55,884 nt of DNA from a virus, in IMG/VR virus record IMGVR_UViG_3300050821_008002, positions 1 to 55,884 of that record; one strand, given 5' to 3'. A program made the translations under genes and the position numbers. Positions within the stretch are counted from its first letter, which is position 1; each line of letters starts with the position of its first letter. This document shows positions 14,995 to 34,078 of the stretch, piece after piece. Below the pieces are notes generated by a model. It had not been told where the DNA came from. It saw only the letters and a list, made by a program, of their open reading frames with translations, and searched no databases.

Positions 14995-15600
14995 ATGAAA
15001 CTCGGCATCGCACCCCGCGTCTCCGCAAGGAAGCGTCGCAGAAATCCGACGCCGGCGCCGATCGCGCTCAACCATGGCGAGCTGCGCGCGGTACTTCTGA
15101 AAGCGAGAGAGTTGGACTATCCGGTCTATGTCCTGATGCTGATCCAGTACCACCACGCCGGCCGGAACTCAGAAATGATCCACTTGCGACGGGCGAATTT
15201 TGCAGACGGATTCATCAGCTATAAGCGAGGCAAGGGTTCGGAGCCTTGCCGGCAGCGCCTGGTCGAATCGAAGGACAATCTACTCGATGAAACCAAAGTG
15301 GTCGTCGATTTCGTGCGCGACCTGAAGCCGAAAGACAGGCTCTATGCCCGGACGCGATGGACCTACTGGCGTCACCTGGTGAAACTCGCGCGTGCGGCTG
15401 GAATCCCGCGGCACAAAGCCAAGACCACCGTTTTGAAACATACGATTTGCACGGACGTGACCGAGAAGTTTGGGCTGCCGGCCGCGCAACGGCGAGCCGG
15501 ACATGTGAACGGAGCCAGCACATTGCGCTACACGAAGATGCGCGAGGACCAAGTGGATGATCTGATCGCGCTGGGAATGGGAAAACGTGCACCAAAATAG
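14995..15600 (+). CDS. short tyrosine recombinase/integrase with altered active site (201 aa)
   Basis: The protein is the catalytic half of a tyrosine recombinase and lacks the N-terminal core-binding domain. A-G-R-N-S-E-M-I-H-L-R-R supplies the first catalytic Arg57; the beta-hairpin lysine is in Y-K-R-G-K-G (77-81); G-H170 and R-Y179 are at the normal nine-residue spacing. The usual H-x-L-R-H-T box reads T145-V-L-K148-H-T, so the second catalytic Arg is Lys and the box His is Thr. Normal integrases are 300-400 residues. It may still work with help, or act as a recombination directionality or DNA-binding relic. Position next to the 15.6-15.86 kb repeat-rich gap suits an integrase beside attP. 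Confidence 0.75.
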   Translation: MKLGIAPRVSARKRRRNPTPAPIALNHGELRAVLLKARELDYPVYVLMLIQYHHAGRNSEMIHLRRANFADGFISYKRGKGSEPCRQRLVESKDNLLDETKVVVDFVRDLKPKDRLYARTRWTYWRHLVKLARAAGIPRHKAKTTVLKHTICTDVTEKFGLPAAQRRAGHVNGASTLRYTKMREDQVDDLIALGMGKRAPK

Positions 15601-20305: not shown

Positions 20306-20589
20306 TGAAGGTGACACACTACGAGTTCGCGCTGCAGCTTCTGAGCCGGGACGAGAGCGATGGTGGCTTCGTCGCGGAAGCGCACAGCATCGGCAAACTG
20401 ACGAAAGCCGATCTCGACTTACCCTTTGATCAATTCGCCGAGCGCTACCTGCGCCCAGCGTGGGAACAGGCGAAAGCTGAGCATGACTACCAGTTATCGC
20501 TCGTGGAAGAGGCGATGAAACTGAAACCCGGAGACAGGTTCACCATGGACTCCGTGAACCTCCTGAATACGAAGATCGGCAAAGCCTGA
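20305..20589 (+). CDS. small late protein, paralog of 19911 gene (94 aa)
   Basis: Shares with the 19911 protein a segment of about 20 residues ending in E-R-Y-L-[KR]-P-A. It is longer at both ends, with a strand-rich N-terminus (Y-E-F-A-L-Q-L-L-S-R-D-E-S-D-G-G-F-V). Stop and next start share one base (TGATG). Unknown function. Confidence 0.6.
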   Translation: MKVTHYEFALQLLSRDESDGGFVAEAHSIGKLTKADLDLPFDQFAERYLRPAWEQAKAEHDYQLSLVEEAMKLKPGDRFTMDSVNLLNTKIGKA

Positions 20590-21149
20590 TGCCCCAGACT
20601 CGCGAAGCCATCAAGCACGCCCCAGTCTCAAACGAAGTCTGGCGCAACAACCGGACGCAGGTCGGGGGACTCTGGTTCGACCCGCTGAAGATCAAACCAG
20701 TGGGGGATCACATTCTGGTGCTGCTGGACGACGAGACGCCGCCAAGTCAAGTCATCGCAGTCCCGGACATCGCCAAGAATCAGGAGATCGGCACGCGCGT
20801 GGGAACCGTCGTCGCCGTCGGGCCGGGCAAGTGGTATCAGAAACAATCCTCGCTGGAGAAAAACGGTCCGATCAGCTGGATTCTGAACAAGCTGATCTTC
20901 AAACCGACGACACTGAAGCCGGGAAACCGCGTGGCGATCGGCCACTACTCCGACTGGGAATCCTGGTCCGCAGATTTTGAAGGACGTGGAAGGAACGTAG
21001 TGCTGTGTCAGGAAGCGGACGTGCGGATTGTCATTGGGCAAGCTGTCGCTGACGCACCACCCGCTTGCAAACAGGCGCAGTGCGTAGAGCCAAGATCGAT
21101 TCGTCCTCGCTTGCAGGCGCCGCAACGCCACACACCGGGGCTCTCTTGA
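20589..21149 (+). CDS. GroES-like co-chaperonin (186 aa)
   Basis: Residues about 33-152 follow the Cpn10 fold: L-K-I-K-P-V-G-D-H-I-L-V-L-L-D (first strands), an I-A-V-P-D-I-A-K-N-Q stretch in the place of the mobile loop, G-T-V-V-A-V-G-P-G-K-W, then L-K-P-G-N-R-V-A-I-G and V-V-L-C-Q-E-A-D-V-R-I-V-I-G as closing strands. GroES is normally about 95 residues; an insertion of about 30 and a 30-residue N-terminal extension explain part of the excess. The C-terminal 36 residues overlap a leftward gene and may be read-through. Like T4 gp31, it probably replaces host GroES so that GroEL can fold the coat protein encoded 4.4 kb downstream. Confidence 0.85.
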   Translation: MPQTREAIKHAPVSNEVWRNNRTQVGGLWFDPLKIKPVGDHILVLLDDETPPSQVIAVPDIAKNQEIGTRVGTVVAVGPGKWYQKQSSLEKNGPISWILNKLIFKPTTLKPGNRVAIGHYSDWESWSADFEGRGRNVVLCQEADVRIVIGQAVADAPPACKQAQCVEPRSIRPRLQAPQRHTPGLS

Positions 21150-21286
21150 AGGCACAGGAAGAGGAGTAAGGCCGTCTCCTCACGAGTAGATTCTTCGAAC
21201 AAAGTGGTGACTCCCTGAACTACATCGGTGACTAGGTAAGTGTGCGGAACTTCAACCCCGATTTCGTAGAAAACAAACCTGGCCAT
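21008..21286 (-). CDS. leftward lone gene, zinc-site protein (92 aa)
   Basis: ATG 21286 is preceded by TAAAAT with six bases between, a leaderless-promoter pattern. The product has beta strands then W-R-C-G-A-C-K-R-G and H-C-A-C. It overlaps the 3' end of the GroES gene by 142 bases on the other strand, more than usual; the end of GroES may have been replaced when this unit arrived. Unknown function. Confidence 0.55.
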   Translation of the reverse strand: MARFVFYEIGVEVPHTYLVTDVVQGVTTLFEESTREETALLLFLCLQESPGVWRCGACKRGRIDLGSTHCACLQAGGASATACPMTIRTSAS

Positions 21287-21292
21287 GGGGCA

Positions 21293-21298
21293 ATTTTA
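21293..21298 (-). promoter_or_regulatory. TANNNT box, leaderless pattern, for gene 21286
   Basis: Minus strand TAAAAT, six bases (TGCCCC), ATG. No Shine-Dalgarno between. Confidence 0.55.
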
Positions 21299-21325
21299 GC
21301 TGAAGCATCTGATCGGACATAAACC

Positions 21326-21448
21326 ATGATCCTCTCCGAAGCGGCTAAAAAGAAAGTACCAACCTCGAAGCGCGGCGTCCCCGGCAAGAGCGGCACCGGC
21401 TCCTATCCCATGCCGGATAAGGCTCATGCCCGTAATTCTCGATGTTAG
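21326..21448 (+). CDS. small protein, probably truncated by insertion (40 aa)
   Basis: ATG 21326 opens MILSEAAKKKVPTSKRG and continues to S-Y-P-M-P-D-K-A-H-A-R-N-S-R-C, then stops. In related phage and prophage proteins the segment P-D-K-A-H-A-R-N is normally followed by A-L-A-R and more residues, so the gene looks cut short right at the first copy of a 19-bp direct repeat. The following leftward gene is the likely inserted DNA. Confidence 0.6.
   Translation: MILSEAAKKKVPTSKRGVPGKSGTGSYPMPDKAHARNSRC
21423..21441 (+). repeat. 19-bp direct repeat, copy 1
   Basis: CTCATGCCCGTAATTCTCG. Identical to 21758-21776. It lies at the end of the truncated gene and includes a copy of the portal start codon and its first codons. 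Confidence 0.9.
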
Positions 21449-21762
21449 GGTTGTTTCTCCTTTTTGTGGAAATGTAGTGCGGCTCGCCGGAGCCAGTGCA
21501 GATTTGGTTTAACTGGAATGTTCCGAAGATCAGACGGCAGCAATGACACTTTGGCTCGAATCAGTGTGATCAGTCCCTCATATTCTGCAATCAGCGCGAA
21601 GCGGCTGGCCGTAAATACATCTCGCGCTTTTTGGTTGCTCGCAAGTGCAGCCTCCAAGCCTGCAGCGCGTTTCGTCATCGCATCAAGAGCACATTGCGCG
21701 GCTTCGAGCCGTTCGTGCTCGGCGTCATAAGCCTGTTTCCAATCTGAATCCGTCAGACTCAT
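21445..21762 (-). CDS. inserted leftward coiled-coil protein, moron candidate (105 aa)
   Basis: ATG 21762 lies within copy 2 of the 19-bp repeat; its CAT and the portal ATG overlap as CATG. The product is helical (E-H-E-R-L-E-A-A-Q-C-A-L-D-A-M) throughout most of its length with a basic end. It runs against the late operon and is bounded by the direct repeats, the layout of a moron inserted by a duplication event. The upstream extension of the frame is inside the portal gene and is rejected. No TANNNT box is seen. Confidence 0.6.
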   Translation of the reverse strand: MSLTDSDWKQAYDAEHERLEAAQCALDAMTKRAAGLEAALASNQKARDVFTASRFALIAEYEGLITLIRAKVSLLPSDLRNIPVKPNLHWLRRAALHFHKKEKQP

Positions 21763-21776
21763 GCCCGTAATTCTCG
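21758..21776 (+). repeat. 19-bp direct repeat, copy 2, at the portal start
   Basis: Second copy of CTCATGCCCGTAATTCTCG, covering the portal ATG. The ribosome-binding AAGG that stands before copy 1 is absent here. Confidence 0.9.
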
Positions 21777-23944
21777 GCTCCAAATCGAAGAAACGCAACA
21801 AGCGATTGACAGACGCCGAAGAGCGGATCACCACTTCGCTCAAACGCTTCAAGATCACCGCCGAGTCGGAGTCGGAGTCCCGCCGTCAGGCTCTGGAAGA
21901 CCTGCGTTTTTCGATCGGCACCGGGCAATGGGACGAATCCGTCAAAGCCAACCGCGAAATCGAAGGCAAGCCCTGTCTGACCATCAACCGCGCCCCGGCA
22001 TTCTTGCGCCAGTACACCGGTGAAGAGCGCCAGCACCGCCCCGCCATGCTGGTGAGTCCAGTGGGGGACGGCGCGGACAAGGAAGCAGCGAAGATTCACC
22101 AGGGAGTGCTCCGGCATGTCGAAGTCGTCAGTGTGGCCGACGTCACCTACGACAACAGCTACGACATGATGATGCGGATTGGCTGGTGTCCGTGGCGCGT
22201 GAACACGGAATTCGTCTCAGAGACCAGCTTCAATCAGGAGCCGCGCATCGAGGCGATCGAGAATCCCTTCGCGGTCTATCTTTCCCCCGTCCGACGTCCG
22301 GACGGCACCGATCCCCTCTGGGGCCACGTCATCCGCGACTACTCGAAAGAGGAATACCGCTCCGAATTCGGAGAGACCGACACCGCGAAACTGAATTTCC
22401 CTGTCTCCCAGGGCGCAGCGGAGCCGGACTGGGTCACGAAAGACGGCGTAAGAGTCGCGGAATACTGGTGGATCGACCTGCAGCCGAAGGTCCTCTGCCT
22501 GCTCGATGACGGCACGACCAAACTCAAAGAGCTAATTCTCGACGACCTCACGAAAGCGCGCGTGGTGCAGGAGCGCGAGACCATCGTCCGGAAAGTCCAC
22601 TGCATCAAGCACGACGCGCTGACCATCATCAAGGAATACGACTGGCTGGGCCGCTATCTTCCCTTCCCGGAAGTCAACGGCGTGCGATTGAACGTGAACG
22701 GAAAGGTCTACCGCTCCGGGATGGTTAGAGATTACCGGGATGCCCAGCGAATCTACGACTTCATGGTGACACGCCAGGTGGAGCAGGTGGATCTCGTTTC
22801 AAAGGATCCGCTCTGGGTGCCGGTCGAGAACGCGCAGTTCGGCGAAGACTACCGGCAGATGAACCGGAAGAACTTCTCCCACCTGTTTTTCAAGGCTTAC
22901 AACGAGAATGGGCAGCAGCTCCCGCCTCCGCAGCGCGCTGGCCGCGAAGCCCCGATCCAGGCCATGGCCGAAGTCATCAAACAGGCCGATTACGACATGA
23001 AAGCCGTGATCGGAATCTACGGTCCTTCACTCGGTGAAGAATCCGGCAGTGCGCAGGAGTCCGGCTTTGCGATTCTAAGTAGACAGGAACAATCCGACAC
23101 CGGCGCCGTCGCCTGGCACGACAATTTGAACCGCGCCATCATGTGGCAGGGCAAAATACTGCTCGACCTCTGGCCGAAGCTGATCAACTCCGCGCGCGTG
23201 CAGCGCATCATCGACCCGGACGACAGCGTGCGGCATGCCGTCATCTTTAACTCCCAAAATCAAACCGACCAGGCCGACGCCGAGAAGCTGCTGAATGCGC
23301 AGATGGGGCTCAAGAAAGCCTATGACGTTGGTGTGGGTGATTACGATCTCGCGCTCTCCACTGGACCGATGTACAAGAGGGCCCGGCAAGAGGCATTCGC
23401 GGCGCTCACGGCAGTCATCAACGAGAACCCGGAAATGATGCTGCCGATCGTGGGCGACATCTGGGCCAAGAACGCCGACTTCCCCGACGCAGACGTGCTC
23501 TCCGAGCGCTTCAAGAAACTCCTGCCGCCGAATCTGCAGGATGGGGACTCGGGCGACCTGCAATCGAAGTATCTGGCGCTGCAGAGCCAGGTCCAGCAGA
23601 TGTCCGACATCCACAACGCCATGGTGCAGGAACTGAGCCGCGCCGACGACACCATCCGCACCAAGCGCCTTGATCTCGAAAGCCGCGAACGGATTGCGCT
23701 GATGAACAGCTGGACCCAGCTGATGGTGCAGCGACTGAAATCGCACGACGTAGCCGCGCAAGCCGCCATGGACGCCCAGCTCCAGGTGATCACGCACCGC
23801 ATGCAGCTGATGAATGAAGACCTGAGCATCGGAGCCGACGCCGGAGCGCCGCCGAACACGCCGGAACTGTCGCCCCAGGTTGAGCCGAAAGTTGTGCCCA
23901 TGACCCCCGCAGCGCCGACGCCGCGACCGCAACCGGTGCAGTAA
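21761..23944 (+). CDS. portal protein, P22 type (727 aa)
   Basis: Length equals the P22 portal (725). The N-terminal part has I-E-G-K-P-C-L-T-I-N-R-A-P-A-F-L-R-Q-Y and the segment I-E-A-I-E-N-P-F-A-V-Y-L-S-P, both typical of P22-family portals, and a long helical C-terminal barrel (residues about 600-690). Twelve copies form the DNA channel at one capsid vertex. The gene has lost an obvious ribosome-binding site because of the upstream insertion. The last 40 residues are Pro/Thr-rich. Confidence 0.88.
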   Translation: MPVILGSKSKKRNKRLTDAEERITTSLKRFKITAESESESRRQALEDLRFSIGTGQWDESVKANREIEGKPCLTINRAPAFLRQYTGEERQHRPAMLVSPVGDGADKEAAKIHQGVLRHVEVVSVADVTYDNSYDMMMRIGWCPWRVNTEFVSETSFNQEPRIEAIENPFAVYLSPVRRPDGTDPLWGHVIRDYSKEEYRSEFGETDTAKLNFPVSQGAAEPDWVTKDGVRVAEYWWIDLQPKVLCLLDDGTTKLKELILDDLTKARVVQERETIVRKVHCIKHDALTIIKEYDWLGRYLPFPEVNGVRLNVNGKVYRSGMVRDYRDAQRIYDFMVTRQVEQVDLVSKDPLWVPVENAQFGEDYRQMNRKNFSHLFFKAYNENGQQLPPPQRAGREAPIQAMAEVIKQADYDMKAVIGIYGPSLGEESGSAQESGFAILSRQEQSDTGAVAWHDNLNRAIMWQGKILLDLWPKLINSARVQRIIDPDDSVRHAVIFNSQNQTDQADAEKLLNAQMGLKKAYDVGVGDYDLALSTGPMYKRARQEAFAALTAVINENPEMMLPIVGDIWAKNADFPDADVLSERFKKLLPPNLQDGDSGDLQSKYLALQSQVQQMSDIHNAMVQELSRADDTIRTKRLDLESRERIALMNSWTQLMVQRLKSHDVAAQAAMDAQLQVITHRMQLMNEDLSIGADAGAPPNTPELSPQVEPKVVPMTPAAPTPRPQPVQ

Positions 23945-29785: not shown

Positions 29786-29954
29786 CCCACGGGGCGCGCT
29801 TCTCGATGCGGATTGCCTCGCCAATCTTAACGCGAGACCGATAATCCCGCTGGGAAATGTCACAGCGCGAGCAGTGGCGAATGTGGGTATAGACCGTGAA
29901 TTTCGACTCTGCCCACCCGGACCATTTGTGGCCGAACCATCGACACCAATTCAT
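29751..29954 (-). CDS. leftward operon gene 4, MNWCRWFGHKW-type zinc protein (67 aa)
   Basis: ATG 29954 overlaps the upstream stop. The start M-N-W-C-R-W-F-G-H-K-W with a later H-C-S-R-C is the signature of small phage zinc proteins (C, H, C-x2-C). Its end overlaps the head-completion gene by 35 bases. Function unknown. Confidence 0.6.
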   Translation of the reverse strand: MNWCRWFGHKWSGWAESKFTVYTHIRHCSRCDISQRDYRSRVKIGEAIRIEKRAPWVSTSDYDSLSR

Positions 29955-30205
29955 AAGCTGTCCTTCGCTAGTTTTGCGTTGATGGCGCAGGTGTGCGTCG
30001 TGGTGAGAGGAGTAGGATCATCCCAGTGACGATTCAGAAGGTCAACCATCTTGCGGATTTCGTCGTCGCGGGTGCAGTCAGATTCGCGGCACGGTACATC
30101 GTCGCAGGCAACTTCAATGCGTAGACCGTGCTTCCCGAAATCGGCGCTGATGCTGACGACCGGATCAGATGCTAGATACGGGCCGAGTTTGAAGTAGCGA
30201 GTCAT
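29951..30205 (-). CDS. leftward operon gene 3 (84 aa)
   Basis: ATG 30205 overlaps the upstream stop. The product has C-D-D-V-P-C-R-E-S-D-C, a possible metal site, then an acidic helix. Unknown function. Co-translated with its neighbours by four-base overlaps. Confidence 0.55.
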   Translation of the reverse strand: MTRYFKLGPYLASDPVVSISADFGKHGLRIEVACDDVPCRESDCTRDDEIRKMVDLLNRHWDDPTPLTTTHTCAINAKLAKDSL

Positions 30206-30582
30206 GTTGTGCGGCGGCGATACTCCCGCAACGCTCTCTTGATGTTCGGCGAGCTCTGGCTGAAGAAGTCGCGGTACTGGCTGATGCGCAAGGGCGGCGG
30301 CAAGGGCGCCAGAGCAAACCCGCCTTCGATAACTTCCGTGATTACAAATCGGTTCGGGGAAGGAGCAATGCTGATGATGTCGCCGATTTCTAATCTCGGG
30401 TCGCCTGCGGGTCGAAACGTAACCGCGCTAATGTCCACACCAGACGCAGGATCGAAGCCCACCCGACTGGGATTGATGATGTTTTTCGGGAAGCTCCACA
30501 CCCGGTTGAACGGAACCGCTTGCTCCAGCGCAATGCCAGCGACTCCGGCGGAAAGCAGCGAAAGAAAGTGGCGGCGGTTCAT
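30202..30582 (-). CDS. leftward operon gene 2, Tat-signal protein (126 aa)
   Basis: The N-terminus N-R-R-H-F-L-S-L-L followed by a hydrophobic S-A-G-V-A-G-I-A-L is a twin-arginine (Tat) signal, so the folded protein should be exported. The mature part of about 95 residues is beta-rich (D-I-S-A-V-T-F-R-P-A-G-D-P-R-L-E-I-G) with a basic tail. I recall similar Tat-signal proteins in soil phages but no function. ATG overlaps the stop of gene 1. A Tat protein on a phage is unusual. Confidence 0.65.
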   Translation of the reverse strand: MNRRHFLSLLSAGVAGIALEQAVPFNRVWSFPKNIINPSRVGFDPASGVDISAVTFRPAGDPRLEIGDIISIAPSPNRFVITEVIEGGFALAPLPPPLRISQYRDFFSQSSPNIKRALREYRRRTT

Positions 30583-32942: not shown

Positions 32943-33503
32943 ATGACCCAGACTCCCACCCGCGAACTGCTCGACACGATTGTCCCGGCCGACTGGGACA
33001 GCCAGAAGCCGGGACCGAATACTGGCTTTCAGCGCACCCGCTGGCTGCAGGGCATCAGTGACCTGGTGAAGCGGCCGGTCGCGAATCGCGGGACAGCGAC
33101 GACGTCGGCGACGGCCGTCAACACAACTGGAGCGCCAGTCTCCAGCGGAATCGGCTGTGGACCGCTACAACCCAAGCGCTATGCGGAATTCACGGTCAAG
33201 GCACGTGTCACCTACAACATCGGCGCCTCAGTCCCGGCTTACCTCTCGGTCTATCGCACCTTGGGAGCGATTCCCGCCAATGGCGCGCCTCCGAACGCGG
33301 GAGACGTGATCGTCGGAGGCGACGCTTTCGCCGGCGGAGCCACTCCCGGCGCCGGCGTCAATCAGATCGGCACGTTCTCCTTCCTCGACACGGGGTTGAG
33401 TGTGAACGACAAGTATCGCTATTACCTGGTGGTGGAAGCTCCGAACGGAAACGTGGTGAATCTCGTCAACTCTTCGCAGGTTCTCGTCATGGAGCGAAGT
33501 TAG
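32943..33503 (+). CDS. hypothetical tail-module protein (186 aa)
   Basis: ATG directly follows the previous stop. A beta-rich protein with an immunoglobulin-like look in the second half: Y-A-E-F-T-V-K-A-R-V-T-Y-N, then D-K-Y-R-Y-Y-L-V-V-E-A-P-N-G. It stands where P22 has gp26 (needle) but has no coiled coil, so it is not an obvious needle. Possibly a minor tail or surface protein. Stop overlaps the next GTG. Confidence 0.6.
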   Translation: MTQTPTRELLDTIVPADWDSQKPGPNTGFQRTRWLQGISDLVKRPVANRGTATTSATAVNTTGAPVSSGIGCGPLQPKRYAEFTVKARVTYNIGASVPAYLSVYRTLGAIPANGAPPNAGDVIVGGDAFAGGATPGAGVNQIGTFSFLDTGLSVNDKYRYYLVVEAPNGNVVNLVNSSQVLVMERS

Positions 33504-34078
33504 TGATCACCGTCGTCTCCGGGATTCCCCGCTCCGGCACTTCGATGATGATGCAGATGCTCGCGGCCGGCGGGATGCCGATTCTCTGTGATGCCGAGCG
33601 AAAAGCGGACACGGACAATCCCAAGGGCTATTTCGAATGGGATCCAGTCAAGCAACTCGCTGAGAATCCGAACTTGATCGATGAGGCCCAAGACAAAGCA
33701 GTGAAGGTGTTCTCGCCCTTCATCCCGTTTCTCGCGGCAGAGCACGAGTACCGCGTCCTCTTCATGCACCGCCCGCTGCTCGAAGTCCTGAAGTCGCAAC
33801 AGGAAATGCTGCGCCGGCGGCTGGACAAGAAAGACTCCACCGTGGATCCACGCGCGCTCGAAGAGGCTTTCCGCTGGCACTTGACCGCCGTCGACGACTG
33901 GCAGGCAGTTCGGTCGAACATGCGCGTGCTGCGAATGGATTACCACGCCGTGCTCCGCGAACCGGAAGTGGCCGCGCGGGAGATCGTTGTGTTCTTGGAG
34001 ATTCCGCTCAAGATTGAGGCGATGGCGGAGCAAGTGGATCGAGACCTTCACCACATTCGGATGGAGCAAGCGTCGTAA
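33503..34078 (+). CDS. sulfotransferase-family P-loop protein (191 aa)
   Basis: The N-terminus I-T-V-V-S-G-I-P-R-S-G-T-S-M-M-M-Q-M-L has the 5' phosphosulfate-binding loop P-R-S-G-T-S (residues 9-14) of PAPS-dependent sulfotransferases. Later R-V-L-F-M-H-R-P-L-L-E-V-L-K-S-Q supplies the usual R-H-P or R-R-P 3'-phosphate contact, and L-R-M-D-Y closes the domain. It should transfer sulfate from PAPS to a sugar or protein acceptor. GTG start overlaps the previous stop. A sulfotransferase between tail genes is unusual: it may modify virion or cell-surface glycans. Confidence 0.75.
   Translation: MITVVSGIPRSGTSMMMQMLAAGGMPILCDAERKADTDNPKGYFEWDPVKQLAENPNLIDEAQDKAVKVFSPFIPFLAAEHEYRVLFMHRPLLEVLKSQQEMLRRRLDKKDSTVDPRALEEAFRWHLTAVDDWQAVRSNMRVLRMDYHAVLREPEVAAREIVVFLEIPLKIEAMAEQVDRDLHHIRMEQAS

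Follow-up and report, generated by a model that had tools for sequence, protein, structure and literature searches.

The locus analysed here lies between a GroES-like gene and the portal gene of a phage; the whole stretch of DNA that was analysed, 55,884 nt in length, is called the window below. The features on which the argument turns are listed by position and strand.

20589–21149, plus strand: GroES/Cpn10-like gene (Pfam Cpn10, E 2.8e-6).
21008–21286, minus strand: leftward ORF 1, 92 aa, a possible first cargo, taken from the ORF list.
21326–21448, plus strand: truncated small gene, its product ending in GTGSYPMPDKAHARNSRC before the stop (phrog_16160, E 4.5e-5).
21423–21441, plus strand: copy 1 of a 19-bp repeat, most likely a portal-start stub (−3 to +16) in the wrong place.
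21441–21461, plus strand: relic of the 3′ end of a GroES-like gene, beginning GATGTTAGGGTTGTTT, placed by a match to the relative L004 and by alignment.
21445–21762, minus strand: leftward gene, 105 aa, second cargo of the slot and moron-like, with a homolog in L004.
21758–21776, plus strand: copy 2 of the repeat, the native portal start, whose CATG is common to the leftward ATG.
21761–23944, plus strand: portal protein gene (Pfam PF16510, P22_portal, E 6.9e-118; phrog_156).

Downstream of the portal gene lie a scaffold-like and then a major-head-like gene, as assigned with PHROGs. Elsewhere in the window there is an integrase-family gene (14995–15600, Pfam E 1.8e-8), which suggests from its sequence that the phage may be temperate, and a sulfotransferase-like gene stands among the late genes (33503–34078, E 3e-9).

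Relatives were collected in one scan, which gave 39 loci with portal homologs at 56–88% identity in the best segment. Four further usable loci came from a profile scan and a genome scan; one of them is a contig of a Bryobacterales MAG, which suggests an acidobacterial host. The portal start is visible in 36 loci, the window included. This set leaves out loci without the portal start (e.g. L017, L022, L027, L031–L034 and L037), duplicates of the same contigs (most of L042–L083) and the distant relatives L084–L090 and L096–L099; in four of its pairs the initial 480 nt of the portal gene agree to more than 95%. The phages collection gave no match to the window by DNA, and the 97 records that it gave by protein, all below 60% identity, were not used further. 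A portal match was also present in 5 of 399 genomes of the class of G001, among them G001 itself, and the other four (25–40% identity) were likewise set aside.

An earlier note on this DNA had described a 19-bp direct repeat on either side of a leftward gene, and this description withstands closer inspection. The sequence CTCATGCCCGTAATTCTCG is present twice in the window, both times exactly, at 21423–21441 and 21758–21776, with a start-to-start distance of 335 nt. No third place was found in the 55,884 nt when up to three mismatches were allowed, and two 19-mer matches arose by chance in none of 100 dinucleotide shuffles of the window. The ORF flanked by the copies has its ATG at 21762–21760 and its stop at 21447–21445, which gives 105 aa. 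The portal start lies in copy 2, as had been proposed, with the portal ATG at 21761 inside the CATG that also holds the leftward ATG. Copy 2 corresponds to the conserved portal N-terminus (MPV.L.SKSKKR). The portal start of the relative L020 has the identical 19-mer, next to a leftward ORF unrelated to that of the window, and this single occurrence is the only exact one elsewhere in the viral collection, in a search from which the window's own record was possibly excluded. When the 3 kb before the portal gene, or whatever the contig held (262 nt for L018), was scanned in 31 relatives, none had a second portal-start-like stretch to match the window's; the best upstream score among them was 13 (L035), as against 19.5 in the window. 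Most likely, then, copy 1 is a displaced duplicate of the start of the portal gene that marks a seam.

One proposed signal did not hold up. An AAGG before copy 1 had been read as a ribosome-binding site, which is unconvincing at a distance of only 3 nt from the ATG, and these bases form part of the D-K-A codons of the small gene. Any of four 4-nt Shine-Dalgarno cores occurs between −20 and −4 at only 3 of the 36 portal starts (window counted), so the missing core at the portal start is normal in this group.

Truncation of the small gene at copy 1, also claimed earlier, is evident from the comparison with relatives: homologs found by motif in 18 relatives all continue past the point at which the window's gene stops (L036, with a divergent 56-aa small gene without the motif, was left out of this count). 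The window's gene matches the L020 homolog at 92% of amino acids over residues 1–36, then departs from it and ends four residues further on. This nearest match, in L020, sits upstream of the GroES-like gene.

The leftward gene between the copies has a homolog in L004 at 60% identity, in the same place and with the same shared CATG, without the repeat; the portal genes of the two are 82% identical. Over 98 codons the two leftward genes differ at 27, 26 and 60 first, second and third codon positions, respectively, with dN 0.33 and dS 2.69, the latter near saturation. Because of this distribution and of dN/dS, the leftward gene is taken to be a protein gene under constraint, and judged from the comparison it is real and constrained on its protein sequence. 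The dicodon score is slightly negative, unlike that of the portal gene, and a dicodon gene finder run on the window did not call the gene; as codon use alone gives no support, the case for the gene is the comparison with L004. By tblastn the gene is present in the window and L004 only among the compared loci. Searched by itself against viral contigs it found no homolog, and the two-row alignment with L004 found only L004's own contig there and nothing in 398 genomes of G001's class, a negative of little weight, since no genome is known to carry the gene. The 105-aa product has no Pfam match up to E 1, and its PHROG matches are weak and of unknown function only (best E 0.064). An AlphaFold model built from the two-row alignment consists of one long helix over residues 5–73 (mean pLDDT 85.4, pTM 0.44), and the product is probably, on this prediction, a small coiled-coil protein.

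To the left, the conserved 3′ end of the GroES-like gene, LCQEADVR, is at about 21003–21026, and past it the window's gene runs into the antisense of leftward ORF 1. In both the window and L020 the GroES-like gene thus overruns its normal end and enters sequence antisense to a leftward ORF, and in L036 it is the leftward ORF that extends into the 3′ end of GroES; these tail-to-tail overlaps were apparently made by changes in the slot. Leftward ORF 1 matched only itself by tblastn against the compared loci. A viral-scan match of 17 residues, inside a rightward gene of L095, was rejected as a homolog, and because no homolog was accepted the ORF is treated as a candidate gene only.

The structure of the region becomes apparent when it is aligned with L004. 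In a blastn comparison, window positions 20561–21960 match L004 in two blocks, 20584–21031 (the GroES-like gene) and 21441–21960, the second of which comprises a GroES-end relic, the leftward gene and the 5′ part of the portal gene, and begins at the last base of copy 1. The L004 stretch from −335 to −322, which lies in its GroES end, is matched twice in the window, once in each block. At 21441, GATGTTAGGGTTGTTT agrees with L004's GroES end in 15 of 16 bases, the best match for these 16 bases on either strand of the whole window (the next best is 12 of 16), and the window's own GroES-like gene lies 0.3–0.85 kb upstream. The relic is short, about 16–21 nt, and in the window it extends over the final codons of the leftward gene. 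It does not do so in L004, where the corresponding bases lie beyond the stop of the leftward gene (−313). Because homology is unbroken from 21441 into the portal gene, the sequence in which the window departs from L004 is to be found left of 21441; and because this homology crosses the supposed left boundary of an insert, copy 1 is not a target-site duplication.

A portal-start stub (copy 1) and a GroES-end stub thus adjoin in the reverse of the usual gene order. About 1–2 nt are shared across the joint at 21441/21442, as counted by eye, and a portal start is here joined to a GroES end without extended homology. A portal start beside a GroES end is the outcome expected if one GroES–portal interval has its right end joined to the left end of a second. 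Our preferred reading, to which we assign a probability of roughly three in four, is that the interval between the GroES-like and portal genes is a swappable cargo slot and that the window stacks two versions of it head to tail. Version 1 would comprise the GroES end, leftward ORF 1, the 5′ part of the small gene and the portal-start stub (copy 1), and version 2 the GroES-end stub, the leftward gene and the real portal start (copy 2). The two versions would meet at 21441/21442 in an illegitimate joint, and a second joint would connect the small gene to the portal-start stub. Such an arrangement could have arisen in one or two steps by unequal recombination or template switching, either between two relatives that infected the same cell or inside DNA undergoing replication. 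The ancestral parts would be copy 2 and its joint with the leftward gene, because L004 has the order GroES, leftward gene, portal with the shared CATG; that placement is drawn from one relative, L004. The order proposed for version 1 (GroES, leftward ORF 1, small gene, portal) was seen in none of the relatives. The nearest relatives on the two sides of the joint are L020 for the GroES-like gene (86.6% over 424 nt) and L001 (84.0%) and L020 (81.6%) for the 5′ part of the portal gene. There is no clear switch of nearest relative across the joint, and this counts against stacked slots, as do the missing version 1 parent, the want of an accepted homolog for leftward ORF 1, the different position of the small gene in L020, the shortness of the relic, the single relative behind the ancestral joint and the single contig that shows the seam.

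At the second joint, the change from the small gene to the portal stub falls at a short resemblance between the KAH codons, GCTCA.GC in L020, and the portal's CTCATGC. Copy 1 could instead consist largely of the small gene's native HAR codons, with only its last bases contributed by recombination; the HAR motif of L006 natively reads CATGCCCGT, so that the native part of copy 1 could reach about 11 nt. We consider this unlikely, given that the nearest homolog, in L020, has GCTCACGCGAAAGCC at that point, that the residue corresponding to the window's S is A in all 15 relatives with an HA motif, and that the other 8 bases of copy 1 would still need a source. The proposal concerns the second joint only and is compatible with stacked slots.

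A further alternative is that two co-existing strains from one sample were joined during assembly. The seam has been seen in one contig, a metagenome virus record and thus a single observation, and the two versions of the slot do resemble the slots of two strains. The word lengths that assemblers usually employ exceed both the 1–2 nt of overlap at the seam and the 19-nt repeat, which argues against such a chimera, and we regard it as improbable.

The earlier note had interpreted the region as a moron at the portal start, recently inserted there with duplication of a 19-bp target and interruption of the small gene. The exact direct repeats flanking the gene and the truncation of the small gene right at copy 1 are what such an event would leave. 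Target-site duplication by a transposable element places direct repeats at both ends of an insert that they bound exactly, and the empty site has one copy. The window resembles this pattern in having a direct repeat at each end of the leftward gene and differs from it in that the right copy exists in relatives without this insert and the left copy abuts a relic of a GroES end that separates it from the leftward gene. In addition, L004 has the homolog in place, with the same CATG and without the left copy, and this is the one relative in which the same arrangement was found without the repeat, an observation that the note itself had named as speaking against its reading. At a dS of about 2.7 from L004, the gene is not recent at this position unless it arrived twice. 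The 105-aa product has no transposase-like match in Pfam or PHROGs. Recent insertion is therefore very improbable. What stands of the moron claim is that a small cargo gene occupies the portal start and that the locus records a rearrangement; a recent insertion that made the repeat does not stand. Finally, a functional role that would maintain both copies of the repeat, be it as operator, recombinase site or regulatory start, is hardly credible. In its favour, the sequence of copy 2 is conserved, though as codons for the N-terminus of the portal protein; against it, the 31 scanned relatives have no second upstream copy, and the one other viral stretch with the exact 19-mer has it once, at a portal start.

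That the interval changes its contents can be seen among the relatives, and this speaks for stacked slots. The distance from GroES stop to portal start, measurable in 34 of the 36 loci, ranges from −10 to 974 nt. The portal genes of L011 and L012 are 99.8% identical over 2100 nt, and there are 6 differences in 2677 bases downstream and 2 in the aligned stretch on the GroES side. Between the last GroES codons and the portal CATG their contents are unrelated: L011 has a 32-nt spacer, and L012 has 152 nt with a leftward ORF. These two segments (L011:3766–4611 and L012:1–966), which come from different metagenome records, offer a natural comparison of a slot with and without a Cys-rich leftward ORF.

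By our own sorting, eight loci have a leftward ORF that fills the slot; minus-strand ORFs antisense to a rightward gene (e.g. in L006, L016, L019, L028–L030 and L057) were, in our judgement, not to be counted. Seven of the eight (window, L001, L004, L007, L010, L012 and L020) share CATG with the portal start, and that of L036 starts 19 nt away from it. Among the eight as tblastn queries, only the window/L004 pair is homologous. The Cys-rich leftward ORFs of L007 and L012 may be distantly related (E 9e-4 in a single BLASTP comparison), and those of L012 and L020, searched in viral contigs, found their own contigs only. For seven leftward proteins, Pfam returned nothing above its curated cut-off and PHROGs nothing better than E 0.023. 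Taken one by one, the lengths of seven of the ORFs are only weakly beyond those in shuffles (P 0.022 to 0.22).

Eighteen of the 36 portal starts, as we sorted them, abut or overlap a stop triplet, 12 are an ATG after C, and 6 are of other kinds. Among non-abutting portal ATG starts, C precedes 12 of 14, the exceptions being the duplicates L057 and L075 (preceded by A), compared with 47 of 104 other non-abutting starts; as the sequences are related, and the 12 include the near-identical L011 and L012, this comparison is no clean test. The CATG opens no counted leftward gene in five of the 12 (L005, L006, L011, L036 and L038), where it is possibly a remnant of lost genes. We considered the shared CATG as strong evidence of mechanism and rejected it as such, since C before ATG is common anyway (47/104). 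A more speculative idea, which we consider unlikely, makes the start codon of the portal gene a permanent docking site, where unrelated leftward genes have repeatedly been joined through the shared palindrome CATG. Genes docked in this way would perhaps use the antisense of the conserved N-terminal portal codons as a source of promoter or start signals. A literature search, limited in library and terms, returned nothing on shared divergent start codons in phages, nor on this phage group.

The cargo genes of the slot are probably dispensable and moron-like. Morons have been described as segments that one genome carries and a related genome lacks, typically with the order promoter, ORF, terminator (PMC3029335). 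The slot genes resemble them in being small and on the opposite strand, in occurring in some relatives but not in others between one and the same pair of genes, and in a lower G+C content, of 0.48–0.54 (the window's ORF and five other CATG-sharing ORFs) versus 0.60 for the GroES-like and portal genes. For the slot, presence and absence are displayed by L011 and L012. The window's own leftward gene, which is on the opposite strand and has a G+C content of 0.525 (GroES-like gene 0.597, portal gene 0.603), has a homolog, among the compared loci, only in L004 and no near-identical pair with and without it. A simple scan of 20900–22000 found no sigma-70-like promoters and no intrinsic terminators (0.4 and 1.5 in shuffles, respectively), in a host whose promoters may not fit the model. 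The window's gene differs from morons in that its start shares CATG with the start of the next gene. In the rightward late region the dicodon gene finder called two further leftward ORFs (29951–30582), possibly moron-like genes as well; one of them (30202–30582) had no Pfam match at E 0.01.

The event is a known kind of phage mosaicism. Blocks have been described that were gained by homeologous recombination at one of their junctions and by illegitimate recombination at the other (PMC2327257). The window is like the cases described there in having the conserved GroES end on one side and an illegitimate seam on the other, and differs from them in that both versions of the slot are kept in tandem and none has been replaced.

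The seam illustrates that the cargo slot of a phage can grow when one version is stacked on another and does not replace it, and the L011/L012 pair indicates that fast turnover is possible in this slot next to an essential head gene. Should the CATG pattern hold, it would become testable how small antisense genes settle harmlessly beside essential genes.
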